A program made the translations under genes and the position numbers. From Mucilaginibacter saanensis (GTDB lineage: Bacteria > Bacteroidota > Bacteroidia > Sphingobacteriales > Sphingobacteriaceae): a stretch of 51,762 nt of DNA. How positions within the stretch are numbered: the stretch's first letter is position 1; the number at the start of each line of letters is the position of its first letter. Location of the stretch: the NCBI RefSeq assembly GCF_014200575.1, contig NZ_JACHBZ010000026.1:1-51762 (forward strand). Reading direction: 5' to 3'. Below the pieces are notes generated by a model that was not told the DNA's origin, ran no database searches, and worked only from the letters and a program-made list of their open reading frames with translations. Of the stretch, positions 2,196 through 18,702 are shown one piece after another.

Positions 2196-4070
2196 TTATT
2201 TAATTTTTGATTGCAGCCAGTTGGTACGGAAAGCTTCCTGTTCTTTACTTAGTGGTTTGCCTGCTTTTTCAAAAGTTACAACTTCAAAGTACGGGCTTTC
2301 TTCCAGCACAATGGTTGTTTCATGTGCGCCGGTGCGGTTTTTATAATTTACCGTAACCTTATCCCCCGGTTTTTTGCCTGCAATTACATCCGAGAACGAT
2401 TTGGTGTCGGTTATGGTTTGGCCATCGGCTTTCAGAATAATATCGCCTGCATCAAGCCCTGCCTTGTAAACCGGGGTGCCAATGATGGTGCTTGATAGTA
2501 TTGGTAAGCCTTCGGCCCCGGCAGCAAGCTGTTGCCCTGCGCGGCCCCTGCCCGGCTTAGTAGCCAGTGAACCAACCCACGCTATACCCGGCTGCATTTT
2601 GCGTAATACCAGGCCGGCTTTGCCCAGCAGCTCATCGTAATTGTTTTTATCAGTACCGTTAATGTAGCGTTTAAAGAAATCAGCAGCAAATTTTGGGTTG
2701 TTGGTAACCTTGCCAAGATCGTTTTGCAGATCAGAAATGGTATAAGGTTTCATTACCTTGCCACGTGCCAGCCAAACCTGGCGCATATAATCATCAAGCG
2801 TGAGGTTAAACTCGCTGCGCAGGCGCAGGTCAAGCGCCAGCGCTATAGCCCCACCGTAAGTGTAATAGCTGGTAAAATCATTAACGTTGTTGTTTGGATC
2901 AATAGATACGCCTGCATCGGCAAATACAGAGTAACGGCTCATTTGTGTTGCCGGGTATTTTGATGCGCCGGGCGTATTCAGAATCTGGTTAACGAGGCCC
3001 GCGATAGTTTGCGTATAATCATCAAGGGTATTAAAGCCCGAACGTGTAAGCAGCAGTTCGCCATAGTATTGGGTAAAGCCCTCGGCAAACCAAAGCTCGC
3101 TGCTCATGTTGGCGTGCTCAAAATTAAAGGGCTCTAATGATTTTGGACGGATGCGCTTTACATTCCAGCTGTGGAAATACTCGTGCGAAAATATGCCCAG
3201 CAGATCACCTTCATTACCGGCTACCTTATCCAAAGGGTCAACAATACAAGTGGAGTTACGGTGCTCCATACCATCGCCTGAGGTGGTTGGGTAAACATCG
3301 GTTAAAAAGGTATATTCACCATAATCATACGCTGGAAACTCGCCGTAAACGGCTTTCTCTTCCTGCACCAGCTTTTGTACCATCTTACCAAAATTATCCA
3401 CCACATTCTGGCTATCGTCAGAGTGTATGGTTACATTGATCTTTTCTTTTTTGCCATCGGTATTGGTGACGTCCCAGTTGGTTATTTTGTAGTTGGAAAG
3501 CTCGGTTGGGCTATCCATCATATACTGCATGTCAGGTGCGCTGTAAATGTTTGAGCCTTCAGGTTTGAGCTGTGTGGCTACTTTCCAGCCATATTTGTCA
3601 AGGTCATTAAATTCAAACTTAAGTGGTCTTTTTTCCTGACCTATTACCCACATAAAGGTAGCGGGCATATTCAGGTGGGCATGGCTGGGGTCAATACTGG
3701 TGTAAGTTCCATCGGTCCAGTTGCCAAAAAGCGTGTAGCTAACTTTAATATTGGCCGGGTGTGCACCTACTTCATAAAGATCGCCTTCCAGTTGAGTAAA
3801 AGGAAGCGGATTCCCCTCAATATCTGTTACTTTAATATTATAAATATTTTTACCAAACTCATGGGTGGCATACCGGCCGGCAGATGAGCGGCTCATGCGG
3901 AAACGCAAGGTTTCGGGCGCCTGGGGTATGGTCATCACCACTTCGGCCTCATGATGTGCAGCATTGGGGAATGAGATAGAATAGTAAATTAATTTTTGTG
4001 CAATGGGCTGCTGTGCAATAGCGGCCGATGTAAATAATGCGGCAATGGTAATTAAAAATAATCTTTTCAT
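2196..4070 (-). CDS. Exported M61-family aminopeptidase with PDZ domain
   Basis: The protein has 624 residues with a signal peptide ending AAIAQ (residue 20). The gluzincin motif HEYFH lies at residues 296-300, followed about 25-30 residues later by ELWFAEGFTQYY, which carries the third zinc ligand (Glu). A PDZ-like module spans about residues 500-600 (GTPVYKAGLDAGDIILKADG). This arrangement is that of M61 glycyl aminopeptidases, which trim N-terminal residues from peptides in the periplasm. The gene is first in a minus-strand run with the M28 peptidase 6 bp downstream, suggesting a paired peptide-degradation role. The start is the ATG before the signal peptide; the divergent gene begins 150 bp away. 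Family assignment is firm, substrate is not. Confidence 0.9.
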   Translation of the reverse strand: MKRLFLITIAALFTSAAIAQQPIAQKLIYYSISFPNAAHHEAEVVMTIPQAPETLRFRMSRSSAGRYATHEFGKNIYNIKVTDIEGNPLPFTQLEGDLYEVGAHPANIKVSYTLFGNWTDGTYTSIDPSHAHLNMPATFMWVIGQEKRPLKFEFNDLDKYGWKVATQLKPEGSNIYSAPDMQYMMDSPTELSNYKITNWDVTNTDGKKEKINVTIHSDDSQNVVDNFGKMVQKLVQEEKAVYGEFPAYDYGEYTFLTDVYPTTSGDGMEHRNSTCIVDPLDKVAGNEGDLLGIFSHEYFHSWNVKRIRPKSLEPFNFEHANMSSELWFAEGFTQYYGELLLTRSGFNTLDDYTQTIAGLVNQILNTPGASKYPATQMSRYSVFADAGVSIDPNNNVNDFTSYYTYGGAIALALDLRLRSEFNLTLDDYMRQVWLARGKVMKPYTISDLQNDLGKVTNNPKFAADFFKRYINGTDKNNYDELLGKAGLVLRKMQPGIAWVGSLATKPGRGRAGQQLAAGAEGLPILSSTIIGTPVYKAGLDAGDIILKADGQTITDTKSFSDVIAGKKPGDKVTVNYKNRTGAHETTIVLEESPYFEVVTFEKAGKPLSKEQEAFRTNWLQSKIK

Positions 4071-14878: not shown

Positions 14879-14968
14879 GTATCAAACATAACAGTATTAT
14901 ATTTATTTTGTTGCCATGGTAATTTACAATGGGCATAACCAAATCAATATTCTTTTGTTAGCTAACTA

Positions 14969-17557
14969 ATGATATCCAAAGGTCAACAGGTTATACAGCA
15001 ATGGTACAAGCAAAAAAACTGGCACCAGTTCCCCTTTCAGCAGGAAATGGAGGCCGCTTATCTTTCGGACTATTCCGGCTTGCTGAACGCGCCTACCGGC
15101 AGCGGAAAAACCTTTGCGCTGTTTTTGCCCTTTTTGGCCGCGTTTATTAACAAGCATCCCGATACGTATACCACTCAAAAAAATAATGGACTGCTCATGC
15201 TGTGGATCACCCCGCTGCGCGCGCTTACCAATGACATCCGCAAAGCCATGCAGGAAACGTGCGATGAAATTGGCCTGCCCTGGCGCATTGCCACCCGCAC
15301 CGGCGACACATCGACAGCAGAGAAACAGGCGCTCAAAAAGAAACTGCCCGAAGTACTGCTCACCACGCCCGAAAGTCTGCACCTGATGCTGGCCCAAAAA
15401 GATTATCCCAAAATGTTCAACAGCCTGCAGGTAGTGGTTATTGACGAATGGCATGAACTGTTAGGCACCAAACGCGGTGTACAGGTGGAGTTGGGGCTAT
15501 CAAGGTTGAAAAACCTCAAAGTGGTTCAGGATATAATAGCTACCATAACAGAAAGCTCCCTCCCCTTCGGGGAGGGTTGGGGAGGGGTTCGTATCTGGGG
15601 CATCAGTGCAACCATCGGCAACCTGGAGCAGGCGGCGGAAGTATTGCTGGGTAATGATTTCCCGCCGGAGCGGATAAAAATGGTGAGGGCCAACCTGGAT
15701 AAAAAGCTCGAAATAAAATCTATCATTCCTGACAATGTGGAGAATTACTCCTGGGCAGGTCATATTGGTTTAAAGCTGCTGCCCCAGGTAATGGAGATAG
15801 TGGCGCGCAGTAAAACCACGCTTATATTTACCAATACCCGTTCGCAATCCGAAATCTGGTACCATGCCATTCTGGATAACTACCCGGAGTATGCAGGTAT
15901 TATGGCCATGCATCATGGCTCGCTGGATAATGAACTGCGCAACTGGGTGGAGCAGGCCCTGCATGCCGAGGCGCTGAAAGTAGTTGTATGCACTTCCAGT
16001 TTGGATCTGGGGGTCGATTTTCGTCCGGTAGATACCGTGGTACAAGTAGGCAGCCCTAAGGGTGTTGCCCGTTTTATGCAGCGTGCCGGTCGGAGCGGGC
16101 ACCATCCCGGTGCCATATCAAGGGCTTACTTTGTCCCTACCCACTCGCTGGAACTACTGGAAGGTGCGGCGCTGAAAGAGGCTATTAAAAAAGGAATATT
16201 TGAAAGCCGCGACCCTATGCTGCTCACTATGGATGTGCTAATTCAATATATGGTTACGCTGGCCGTATCTGACGGTTTCAGAGCCGACGAATTGTTTAAA
16301 GAAGTAAAAAACACCTATGCCTTTGCCGATATTACCCGCAATGAATTTGGCCAGTTGCTTGACTTTATTACCAGCGGGGGCAAAACCCTGGCACAATATG
16401 ATGAGTTTTTGAAAGTGGAGGTTGAAGATGGTTTGTATAAGGTGAACAGCAGGCGCGTAGCCATGCGTCACCGGCTTAGTATAGGCACCATCACCAGCGA
16501 GTTAAGCATCCGTGTTAAATGGTTAAGCGGGGGCAGCCTGGGCACTATTGAAGAATCGTTTGTATCCAAATTAAAACCGGGTAATACTTTTTGGTTCGCG
16601 GGCCGTAGCCTGGAGTTTATCAGGGTAAAGGAAATGACGGCTTACGTCAAAAAATCAAACTCCACCAAAGGGCTTATCCCCAGTTGGAATGGTGGCCGTA
16701 TGCCTTTATCGTCACAATTGTCGGCAGTGTTCAGGGATAAGCTGGATGAGGTTGCTCATGGTATTGAAAAGGACGAGGAAGTTATAGCGCTGAAGCCGTT
16801 GTTCAACTTACAGCAGCAACTTTCGCATCTGCCCCAGAGCCACGAGTTCCTGATAGAGTCATTTAAATCGCGCGAGGGGCACCACCTGTTATTTTATCCG
16901 TTTGAGGGTCGGCTGGTACACGAGGGCATGGCATCGCTGCTGGCATTCCGCATCAGCAAAATTAAAACGGCCAGCTTCTCCATAGCCATGAATGATTATG
17001 GGTTTGAATTACTTACCGACGAGGACGTACCGATTGAACAGGTGCTGGAAGATGCCAGCTTTTTTTCGATAGATAACCTCCTGGACGATATACAGCATAG
17101 CTTAAATGCCAATGAAATGGCCCGCCGCAGGTTCAGGGATATTGCACACATCGGCGGGTTGGTATTTACCGGCTATCCGGGGCAGCAAGTAAAAAACAAG
17201 CACCTGCAGGCATCTACCTCTTTATTATTTGAAGTATTTACCGAGTATGAGCCCGATAATCTGCTGGTAAGGCAGGCCTATAACGAGGCCCTTGCCTTTC
17301 AGCTAGAGGAGTTCAGGCTAAGAGCCGCCCTGCAGCGTATAGCTACACAAACCATCATCCTGAAAGAGATTGAGCGCCCTACCCCCTTTGCCTTCCCCAT
17401 TATGGTTGATAGTTTAGGGCGCGAAAAACTGACTACCGAAACAATGGAAGAGCGTATAGCCAAAATGGCCCGCCGTTACGGCGCAGAAGGCGTTGCCGAG
17501 CCTGACGACAAACGAAAAAGCCGCAAACCCGGCATCACCAGGAAAAAGGGCTTTTAG
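14969..17557 (+). CDS. Ligase-associated DEXH-box DNA helicase (Lhr-like)
   Basis: The 862-residue protein is an SF2 helicase of the Lhr group: Walker A APTGSGKT (residues 41-48), DEWHELLGTKRGVQVELGLS (DEXH), SATIG, a CTSSLDLGVDF motif V, and VGSPKGVARFMQRAGRSGHH (motif VI), followed by a winged-helix/Lhr core region and a basic tail RKSRKPGITRKKGF. The family is usually encoded with a DNA ligase, an exonuclease and a phosphoesterase in a DNA-damage response cluster; none of these is next to it here. Between DEWH and SATIG, residues about 190-208 (including SSLPFGEGWGGV) are encoded by a palindromic GC-rich repeat (15555-15590), an insertion relative to the usual spacing. The frame is intact through it. 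Confidence 0.92.
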   Translation: MISKGQQVIQQWYKQKNWHQFPFQQEMEAAYLSDYSGLLNAPTGSGKTFALFLPFLAAFINKHPDTYTTQKNNGLLMLWITPLRALTNDIRKAMQETCDEIGLPWRIATRTGDTSTAEKQALKKKLPEVLLTTPESLHLMLAQKDYPKMFNSLQVVVIDEWHELLGTKRGVQVELGLSRLKNLKVVQDIIATITESSLPFGEGWGGVRIWGISATIGNLEQAAEVLLGNDFPPERIKMVRANLDKKLEIKSIIPDNVENYSWAGHIGLKLLPQVMEIVARSKTTLIFTNTRSQSEIWYHAILDNYPEYAGIMAMHHGSLDNELRNWVEQALHAEALKVVVCTSSLDLGVDFRPVDTVVQVGSPKGVARFMQRAGRSGHHPGAISRAYFVPTHSLELLEGAALKEAIKKGIFESRDPMLLTMDVLIQYMVTLAVSDGFRADELFKEVKNTYAFADITRNEFGQLLDFITSGGKTLAQYDEFLKVEVEDGLYKVNSRRVAMRHRLSIGTITSELSIRVKWLSGGSLGTIEESFVSKLKPGNTFWFAGRSLEFIRVKEMTAYVKKSNSTKGLIPSWNGGRMPLSSQLSAVFRDKLDEVAHGIEKDEEVIALKPLFNLQQQLSHLPQSHEFLIESFKSREGHHLLFYPFEGRLVHEGMASLLAFRISKIKTASFSIAMNDYGFELLTDEDVPIEQVLEDASFFSIDNLLDDIQHSLNANEMARRRFRDIAHIGGLVFTGYPGQQVKNKHLQASTSLLFEVFTEYEPDNLLVRQAYNEALAFQLEEFRLRAALQRIATQTIILKEIERPTPFAFPIMVDSLGREKLTTETMEERIAKMARRYGAEGVAEPDDKRKSRKPGITRKKGF
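15555..15590. repeat. Palindromic GGGAGGGG-type repeat inside the helicase gene
   Basis: CCCTCCCC (15558-15565) and GGGGAGGG (15569-15576) form an 8-bp perfect hairpin with a 3-nt loop, followed by TTGGGGAGGGG. The composition matches the intergenic repeat at 18073-18190 and not the surrounding codons. It adds about 12-20 residues without breaking the frame. Confidence 0.75.
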
Positions 17558-17644
17558 TTAACAAATTTGTTACCGCAAAAAAATATCCGCAACGGTTAAA
17601 CCATATCGCGTTTTTGGGCTCTTACCTTAAACAATTTTACCTTT

Positions 17645-17971
17645 ATGACAACCTTAAAACTACACCGCCTGGCTATAGCCTGCAGTCTTTTCCTGGCATC
17701 ATGTGGAACCATCGCCCCCGATTACCTGGGCGATAAGTATGACCCAACCACCAAAACCGATGTTTATTATGACGCTAAGGACGTTAAACAAAGCTTTAAG
17801 GTAATAGGCCACTTATCTATGGTATATTACAACGCCTATGATTCTGATTATTACAAAAACAAAATGACAGATAAAGCCAAATCAATAGGTGCCGATGCTG
17901 TTATCATTTTACAGAATGACGGCCATGAAAGTAAAGAAATGGTAAGGGCCGATGCAGTAAAATACAATTAA
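17645..17971 (+). CDS. Small hypothetical lipoprotein (108 aa)
   Basis: MTTLKLHRLAIACSLFLASC is a lipoprotein signal peptide with Cys20 in the LASC lipobox. The mature part is about 88 residues, polar, with a Tyr-rich middle (SMVYYNAYDSDYYKNK) and the segment DKAKSIGADAVIILQND, the helix-turn-strand seen in small YbjQ/RcsF-like alpha/beta domains. I cannot assign a family with confidence. It begins 87 bp after the helicase on the same strand, preceded by a TTTACCTTTATG context, so it is probably transcribed separately. Confidence 0.7.
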   Translation: MTTLKLHRLAIACSLFLASCGTIAPDYLGDKYDPTTKTDVYYDAKDVKQSFKVIGHLSMVYYNAYDSDYYKNKMTDKAKSIGADAVIILQNDGHESKEMVRADAVKYN

Positions 17972-18072
17972 ACGGCCTCCACATTTACAAGGATTTTACC
18001 AATGCAATAACCTACAACTCTCTACAAGAAGTAATAGAAAATTATGTGACAAAAGGTAAACCTGCCTGATGT

Positions 18073-18190
18073 TTTCCCTCCCAACGGGAGGGGTGTGTTG
18101 GGTTGTGAAGTGGCAGGGAGGGGTTTATTCACCTTGTTTATGCATAAACCCCTCCCTGCACCCTCCCGTGGGGAGGGAATCGCACCAACC
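18073..18190. repeat. Large composite inverted repeat (GGGAGGGG family)
   Basis: GCAGGGAGGGGTTTA (18113-18127) pairs perfectly with TAAACCCCTCCCTGC (18145-18159). Outer parts also match: CCCTCCCAACGGGAGGG on the left and CCCTCCCGTGGGGAGGG on the right are each locally palindromic and related to each other. The left side carries an extra TTGGGTTGTGAAGTG relative to the right. Confidence 0.75.
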
Positions 18191-18353
18191 TCCTTTGCTT
18201 CTATAATTTACCTGTCCTTTCACAGACTATTATTATTCAACAGAAAGCGTTATCCCCGGAATATTAATCTTTTTATTCCCTATTGTTATATCTATTCCCA
18301 TCTACACATTTGTTATTTCTGCATATCCACACCTAAAATTACGACAGGCTTTT

Positions 18354-18361
18354 TACCTTTG
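18354..18361 (+). promoter_or_regulatory. Candidate -7 box (TACCTTTG) for csaA
   Basis: An exact TAnnTTTG match ends only 5 bp before the csaA ATG at 18367, so transcription would start at or within a few bases of the start codon. No clear -33 element. Confidence 0.45.
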
Positions 18362-18366
18362 CCCTT

Positions 18367-18702
18367 ATGGAAACTATCACCTGGCATGATTTTGAGCAAG
18401 TGGAGCTCAGAGTTGGTACCATACTTGAAGCAACGGATTTTCCGGAGGCCCGTAAACCTGCCTTTAAGGTTGAGGTTGATTTTGGAGAATTTGGCATTAA
18501 ATGGTCGAGCGCACAGATCACTAAACATTATACTAAGGAGGAATTGCCCGGCCGCCAGATTGTTGGAGTTATTAATTTCCCTAAAAAACAGATCGGAAAA
18601 TTCATGTCGGAGTTTTTAGTTACCGGCTTCGCCGATGAAAACGGCGACATTGTTTTAGCCGCTGTTGATAAACCTGTGCCCAACGGCAGTAAACTTGTTT
18701 AA
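18367..18702 (+). CDS. csaA: tRNA-binding protein CsaA (TRBD/OB-fold)
   Basis: The 111-residue protein is a stand-alone tRNA-binding OB-fold (as in the C-terminus of bacterial MetRS): VELRVGTILEATDFPEARKP, then VEVDFGEFGIKWSSAQI and LPGRQIVGVINFPKKQIGKF, and a C-terminal PVPNGSKLV. CsaA binds tRNA and has been described as an export-related chaperone in Bacillus; the tRNA binding is the safer call. Its TAA stop is immediately followed by the ATG of the TadA gene with no gap, so the two are translationally adjacent and share a promoter. Start is the only ATG before the fold. Confidence 0.88.
   Translation: METITWHDFEQVELRVGTILEATDFPEARKPAFKVEVDFGEFGIKWSSAQITKHYTKEELPGRQIVGVINFPKKQIGKFMSEFLVTGFADENGDIVLAAVDKPVPNGSKLV

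Follow-up and report, generated by a model that had tools for sequence, protein, structure and literature searches.

The window analysed here, a 51,762-nucleotide stretch of contig NZ_JACHBZ010000026.1 of the soil bacterium Mucilaginibacter saanensis, encodes an Lhr-like helicase with a translated palindrome in the loop between DEWHE and GISATIG, which we take to be helicase motifs II and III (Table 1). A preliminary description of this DNA had reported CCCTCCCC-TTC-GGGGAGGG followed by GGGGAGGGG as a repeat element inserted into the helicase gene, and this palindrome is indeed present (15558–15587). The hairpin arms (15558–15565 and 15569–15576) are each 8 nt and 100% complementary around a 3-nt loop, and a second copy of GGGGAGGG is located at 15579–15586. 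A search of the window with CTCCCCTTCGGGGAGGG at up to 3 mismatches gives two matches, both at the helicase site and one on each strand, compared with a mean of 0.05 in 100 dinucleotide shuffles, none of which has two, and the palindrome is thus not a chance occurrence. As had been proposed, the reading frame stays open across the hairpin, where it reads SSLPFGEGWGGV.

Table 1. Features of the helicase locus and the downstream intergenic region (window coordinates)
Feature	Coordinates	Strand	Basis
Lhr-like / ligase-associated DEXH helicase (host gene), 862 aa	14969..17557	+	Open reading frame; Pfam WH_Lhr 4.4e-62, DEAD_assoc 4.3e-55, DEAD, Helicase_C
DEWHE, upstream border of the loop	15443..15457	+	Sequence
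KVVQDIIATITES, probable remnant of the DUF559 nuclease C-terminus	15518..15556	+	Comparison with cassette tails
SLPFGEGWGGV, 3′ terminal arm of the cassette	15557..15589	+	Hairpin 15558–15576, then GGGGAGGGG 15579–15587; match to 3′ arms of full cassettes
GISATIG, downstream border of the loop	15599..15619	+	Sequence
Intergenic palindrome, 106 bp, CCCTCCC-loop-GGGAGGG with inward-facing GGGAGGGGTTT tails	18074..18179		Inverted pairs I1 and I2; arrangement read from sequence

From DEWHE to six residues past SATI the window helicase has 64 residues. The same stretch is 44–45 residues long in 20 of the 26 most distant loci compared (L060–L085; 54–58% identical, none named Sphingobacteriaceae) and 51–62 in five others, L071 being unmeasured as its motif reads SATV, and the insert therefore does lie where distant homologues have a short loop, in line with what had been claimed. 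The nearest named helicases are those of Mucilaginibacter, in which the stretch ranges from 50 to 244 residues (80 named helicase loci compared). Among the loops of named loci where the motifs were found, none from an unrelated genus has the same residues encoded by non-repeat DNA, the observation that the preliminary description had set against its own proposal.

Cassettes and remnants in the helicase loop

Elsewhere in the genus this loop can hold a complete cassette, in which a Vsr-like DUF559 endonuclease (~125 aa) is flanked by a 5′ arm read as LTPALSKGEG and a 3′ arm read as SLPLGEGWGGV; the 5′ arm DNA is ACCYCACCCC-RR-CCCTCTCC-AAA-GGAGAGGG. In 10 of 11 helicase loops the two arms are inverted repeats of one another (scores of 16–23, with letter shuffles reaching at most 14); in the eleventh, L172, the arm pattern picked the wrong arm. 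Both Mucilaginibacter sp. OK268 (L038) and M. straminoryzae (L054) have a whole DUF559 frame inside the helicase loop, flanked by LALSKGEG or LALSKGQG on the 5′ side and by PLPLGEGWGGV or SLPFGEGRGGV on the 3′ side. The helicase was searched for in 149 genomes of the genus, 143 of which gave a match, and 113 loops were read, one per genome, with loop classes assigned by eye. Full in-frame cassettes are present in ten of these (L089, L090, L092, L148, L152, L155, L157, L162, L166, and L172) and remnants in seven: the window (L118), L119, L137, and L190 have a clear GEGWGG or GEGRGG-like arm, L217 and L222 have an LALSEGEG or PALPEGEGRGG arm, and L218 has GESRGGV only. One loop, L220, is nearly empty. 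All 113 loops are open in one frame with both motifs and none contains a stop; among the 30 further matched genomes a few of the helicase matches listed do have one. At L042 there is an in-frame stop within the palindromic loop of the helicase (~3526–3612), possibly reflecting a broken gene or an assembly error.

The window hairpin and its tail (30 nt) are identical at 26–28 positions to the 3′ arms of nine of the ten full helicase cassettes, L166 being left unaligned by the arm pattern, and the 42 nt upstream of the hairpin match L148 at 24 positions and eight other cassettes at 11–19. The 13 residues of KVVQDIIATITES align without gaps to the nuclease C-terminus, the best match being that of OK268 (KIVQKIIHNLQES; 7/13 identical by eye). 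When they are anchored at the hairpin and compared with nine cassette tails, the mean score is reached in 18 of 20,000 shuffles and the best score in one of 20,000. One of the seven helicase remnants belongs to a near relative (G042, 93% identical), in which the two arms are present but the nuclease is missing; at IcmF (L327) the same genome retains an N-terminal piece of the nuclease, RGYETADPALWGA. In the window's own genome the IcmF cassette is intact (L086) and LeuRS has a two-arm remnant, SPKSSPKERTLEKNVENSLSFGEGRGEA (L275, C10:33412). That genome also has a second arm pair within IcmF, at L282:2821 (C25:16968).

We regard the presence of a DUF559 cassette scar in the window as well supported, and the repeat is likely to be what remains of the 3′ end of a selfish cassette that lay in frame and was not spliced out. 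The extra residues had been described as derived from the repeat, which holds for the hairpin arm, and the portion KVVQDIIATITES instead resembles a nuclease remnant. A short palindrome similar to repetitive extragenic palindromic (REP) sequences or Rickettsia palindromic elements (RPEs) could alternatively have been inserted independently and never been linked to a nuclease, the upstream residues being ordinary loop sequence. The simpler hairpin CCCTCYCC-N2..5-GGRGAGGG does occur at 20 places in the genome (0 in a reversed control), 12 of the 17 examined being in no frame of ≥150 aa, and there are short palindrome-only loops such as L137 (KTRSPLGEGWGGLRIW) and L218; such an origin is nonetheless unlikely, given that the site and the 3′ arm are shared with full cassettes, that the near relative has both arms, and that, in the register next to the arm, the 13 residues ahead of it match the end of the nuclease.

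Several observations weigh against interpreting the window as a cassette scar. The tail is only 13 residues long and its best match hangs mainly on cassette L148, which dominates a test whose anchor and length were picked after the alignment was seen; with a free offset, 34 of 5,000 shuffles and 6 of 805 helicase 13-mers equal the mean score. Moreover, 95 of the 113 loops have other content that the cassette model leaves unexplained, and 71 of these show a complementarity between their two halves (first half against the reverse complement of the second) that none of 40 shuffles equals, pointing to other kinds of inverted arms. Translated inverted repeats unlike those of the cassette are common in this helicase loop. 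Contents noted among L120–L227 (e.g. L169, L185, and L173) include QLAVGS..ENCQL, SLKSEVLS..LKTSDFRL, GAGSELRGSG, and HHSPLTTHHS, and the near-identical helicases L120/L123 and L156 carry differing palindromic contents. The loop keeps swapping unrelated palindromes.

The preliminary description had also likened the palindrome to the intergenic repeat downstream and envisaged a 36-bp repeat family whose spread this copy would date. The exact 28-mer occurs once in the 6.24-Mb genome (search allowing ≤3 mismatches), and the looser pattern of the hairpin plus GGGAGGGG is found genome-wide only at the helicase site and at 18149–18175, so the palindrome is not a high-copy 36-bp repeat; the idea was rejected on the uniqueness of the 28-mer, and this copy allows no dating. 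The likeness to the intergenic palindrome is real at the level of a shared building block, as it has the hairpin block and GGGAGGGGTTT in common with the cassette, but with the arms arranged in reverse orientation. It probably belongs to the same superfamily as the cassette arms; comparison of arrangement and sequence gave no sign that it was the source of the helicase insert, which appears not to be a dropped-in copy and matches the 3′ arm of the DUF559 cassette. Its own arrangement looks like a junction between two elements.

Distribution of the cassette and its nuclease

Insertion without destruction of the gene had been presented as an unusual case, but in Bacteroidia cassettes of this type are found in frame at nine or more kinds of site. 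The cassette is in frame, and mostly armed, in IcmF, two LeuRS sites, TruB, RecG, an IleRS-like synthetase, and MetH; in RecG (L307) it separates DEAD from Helicase_C, which is likewise the interval from motif II to motif III that it occupies in Lhr. Within the genus, DUF559 is present in 54 of 61 genomes, and 71 domains (from 72 loci, made up of the strongest matches and those of the own genome, minus one duplicate and one short domain) comprise 30 that are free-standing, 15 before HisF, one before HisH, 14 in IcmF, five in LeuRS, three in TruB, and three in Lhr. Across the class it is present in 165 of 346 genomes, and the 30 top-scoring loci, a sample biased by that choice, extend the list of hosts to a second LeuRS site, two MetH sites, RecG, a class I tRNA synthetase (taken here to be IleRS), a GATase_5 protein, and a subunit of a type I restriction system. 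A protein search gave 813 proteins matching the cassette (E ≤1e-8; 1046 candidates), with Lhr, LeuRS, and MetH domains among the 120 listed. Four short proteins (P0132, P0141, P0166, and P0174) join DUF559 to PF02542, PF00625, or PF00535, presumably IspF, guanylate kinase, and glycosyltransferase. DUF559 and HisF share one open frame at L096–L098, L102, L107, L109, L110, and others; SPFRGRGG occupies the expected HisF start, and HisF may therefore use a non-ATG start codon.

Hairpins (stem ≥7, loop 3–5) were sought within 180 nt of DUF559 domains of Mucilaginibacter and other Bacteroidia. For internal or C-terminal insertions they are present at 38 of 50 5′ ends and 32 of 50 3′ ends, and on either side in 45 of 50, compared with 20 of 583 control windows of equal size from the same loci; free-standing DUF559 genes have one in 7 of 36 cases. 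REP elements spread by a REP-associated tyrosine transposase (RAYT; Y1_Tnp) are a very unlikely source of these hairpins, since arms flank DUF559 in most internal cassettes; the window's own genome does have two Y1_Tnp genes, but the loose hairpin pattern matched once at one of them (L002) and not at the other. Hairpins are not consistently present at the two genes, and a RAYT origin was disfavored.

Across 65 aligned DUF559 sequences nine positions never vary, including T27, E30, E69, D71, G72, H75, and D84. Four of 13 pairs have dS <1.6, with ratios of nonsynonymous to synonymous substitution (dN/dS) of 0.09, 0.14, 0.04, and 0.05, the remaining pairs being saturated, and the cassette nuclease is under purifying selection. 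A structural model of the domain (mean predicted local distance difference test score, pLDDT, of 85.3) matches 3HRL, the homing endonuclease I-Bth0305I, and E. coli Vsr, and a profile search finds I-Bth0305I by sequence. The cassette thus encodes a nuclease of a known homing family.

Descent, possible homing and tolerance of the insert

Occupied, partial, and empty alleles are found at fixed sites in Lhr and IcmF (the latter comparison being based on output from 25 of 30 loci). When a nuclease tree of the genus, to which seven Lhr cassettes from other genomes were added, is labeled by host site there are 9 changes versus 43.1 in shuffles, reflecting site-tied lineages, with one change each for IcmF, LeuRS, and TruB, two for Lhr, and five for HisF. 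In the class-wide tree Lhr, IcmF, and TruB again have one change each, and 39 Lhr cassettes form one group (94/89). Host labels in this tree are crude, with 49 of 185 rows labeled 'other', many of them LeuRS by Pfam, and we therefore rely on Lhr, IcmF, and TruB only. The window helicase falls within a 25-row group of the helicase tree that holds five full cassettes and one other remnant, and patchiness on that tree is not significant (5 changes versus 5.7 shuffled). In one of ten pairs, L155/L157, the cassette and downstream flank are unusually alike (2/49 versus 79/360 fourfold sites; p 0.0018, uncorrected for 10 pairs), a weak hint of possible co-conversion.

Other results count against mobility or against the selfish-cassette interpretation as a whole. 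No sign of co-conversion is present in nine of the ten pairs compared, and in L113/L228 the cassette is more diverged (p 0.047). Labels for LeuRS, MetH, and IleRS are scattered on the class-wide tree, and by the stem and loop criterion above no hairpin is present in any of 16 N-terminal HisF/HisH fusions or in the single HsdR insertion. Cassette and helicase identity rise together (r 0.85), with the cassette the less conserved of the two in all 45 pairs, which argues for mostly vertical inheritance with losses, and we read the helicase site as an old insertion that has probably descended mostly vertically and been lost frequently.

This correlation, the single clade per site for IcmF, TruB, and Lhr, and the purifying selection would also fit an ancient fusion of a DUF559 domain, made once per gene, inherited vertically and serving a host function (the helicase aiming the nuclease, for example), which is now immobile and being lost. 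We consider this possible though somewhat improbable, because like arms and nuclease occur in unrelated enzymes (LeuRS, IcmF, TruB, MetH, and RecG) for which a common host function is hard to see, and because of the terminal inverted arms, the patchy presence, and the scattered labels just noted. We favor instead a homing-like selfish element that dispenses with both intron and intein and persists because it is translated within tolerant loops. With a probability of about one half, such elements would form a class of their own, resident in exons and not spliced: Vsr-like nucleases with palindromic arms, carried as translated domains by aminoacyl-tRNA synthetases, helicases, and B12 enzymes across Bacteroidia, which would spread by cutting empty alleles and leave hairpin scars. 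Homing would be the best mechanism for the filling of the sites.

In the established view, homing nucleases usually require an intron or intein to be harmless within a gene. In the cassettes described here the arms and nuclease would be translated within the host polypeptide, an empty allele would be cut by the nuclease, and repair would copy the cassette in, with stop-poor arms and a tolerant loop substituting for an intron or intein in keeping the insert harmless; in the absence of selection the nuclease would be deleted, leaving a hairpin scar. In 10 of 11 loops, no more than one of the six frames across the arms and a few host bases contains a stop. A full-length model of an occupied helicase is weak (mean pLDDT 64.5) and was therefore used solely for arm disorder and placement of the nuclease fold; in it the arms are disordered (residues 184–227 and 326–336) and the nuclease is folded between helix 168–183 and strand 339–344. 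Removal of the insert as an intron or intein before the protein is made is most improbable: homing nucleases often occupy such elements, as stated in an excerpt of PMC3943268, but a Pfam scan gives no intein domain, an Rfam scan of window 14900–18400 and L038 3300–4300 gives no intron family, and all 113 loops are open in one frame with both motifs. Three sub-threshold Rfam matches, mir-5470 (at the intergenic palindrome), sR7, and whalefall-1, were taken as chance. With neither intein domain nor intron family, translation straight through the insert would be the simplest reading.

Translation within a flexible loop, together with arms in which stop codons are rare, seems to be what makes the element tolerable. 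If correct, the homing interpretation would account for a family of translated palindromes in Bacteroidota proteins, place full cassettes, remnants, and scars in one natural series, and offer a testable role for DUF559, which is still named as of unknown function in Pfam.

Comparison with known systems

Literature searches of open-licence papers found no description of such cassettes. The EDxHD / Vsr-like homing endonuclease I-Bth0305I has the same fold, detectable sequence homology, and presence or absence at fixed sites in conserved genes, but is grouped with group I intron homing endonucleases in the part of PMC3943268 consulted, whereas the cassette nuclease forms one domain of the host reading frame and no splicing element was found. 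The I-Bth0305I entry is named 'mobile intron protein' in the profile search. In the split ribonucleotide reductase of Friedrich 2007 a homing-type nuclease has reportedly inserted into the host frame, and the host gene is split. Campsomeris cox2 likewise has a nuclease-associated insertion in a conserved gene, and that gene too is split in the account excerpted from PMC5374615, whereas here the host frame is in one piece. Caulobacter VsrA has the same Vsr-like Pfam domain, DUF559, but is an ordinary separate gene with a proposed role in mismatch repair, and the excerpt of PMC12907096 mentions neither arms nor insertion; the same excerpt reports from scmA (methyltransferase) mutants that a DNA-damage response depends on the DUF559 protein. 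RPEs are palindromes in frame in many unrelated protein genes, as are the arms described here, but they occur in another lineage and no nuclease is mentioned with them in the portion of PMC10969869 consulted; here the short copies match the ends of nuclease cassettes and recur at fixed sites. Miniature inverted-repeat transposable elements and REP elements share the short terminal inverted hairpins seen as cassette arms in 10 of 11 helicase loops, whereas the cassette is in frame inside genes and encodes a nuclease instead of a transposase.
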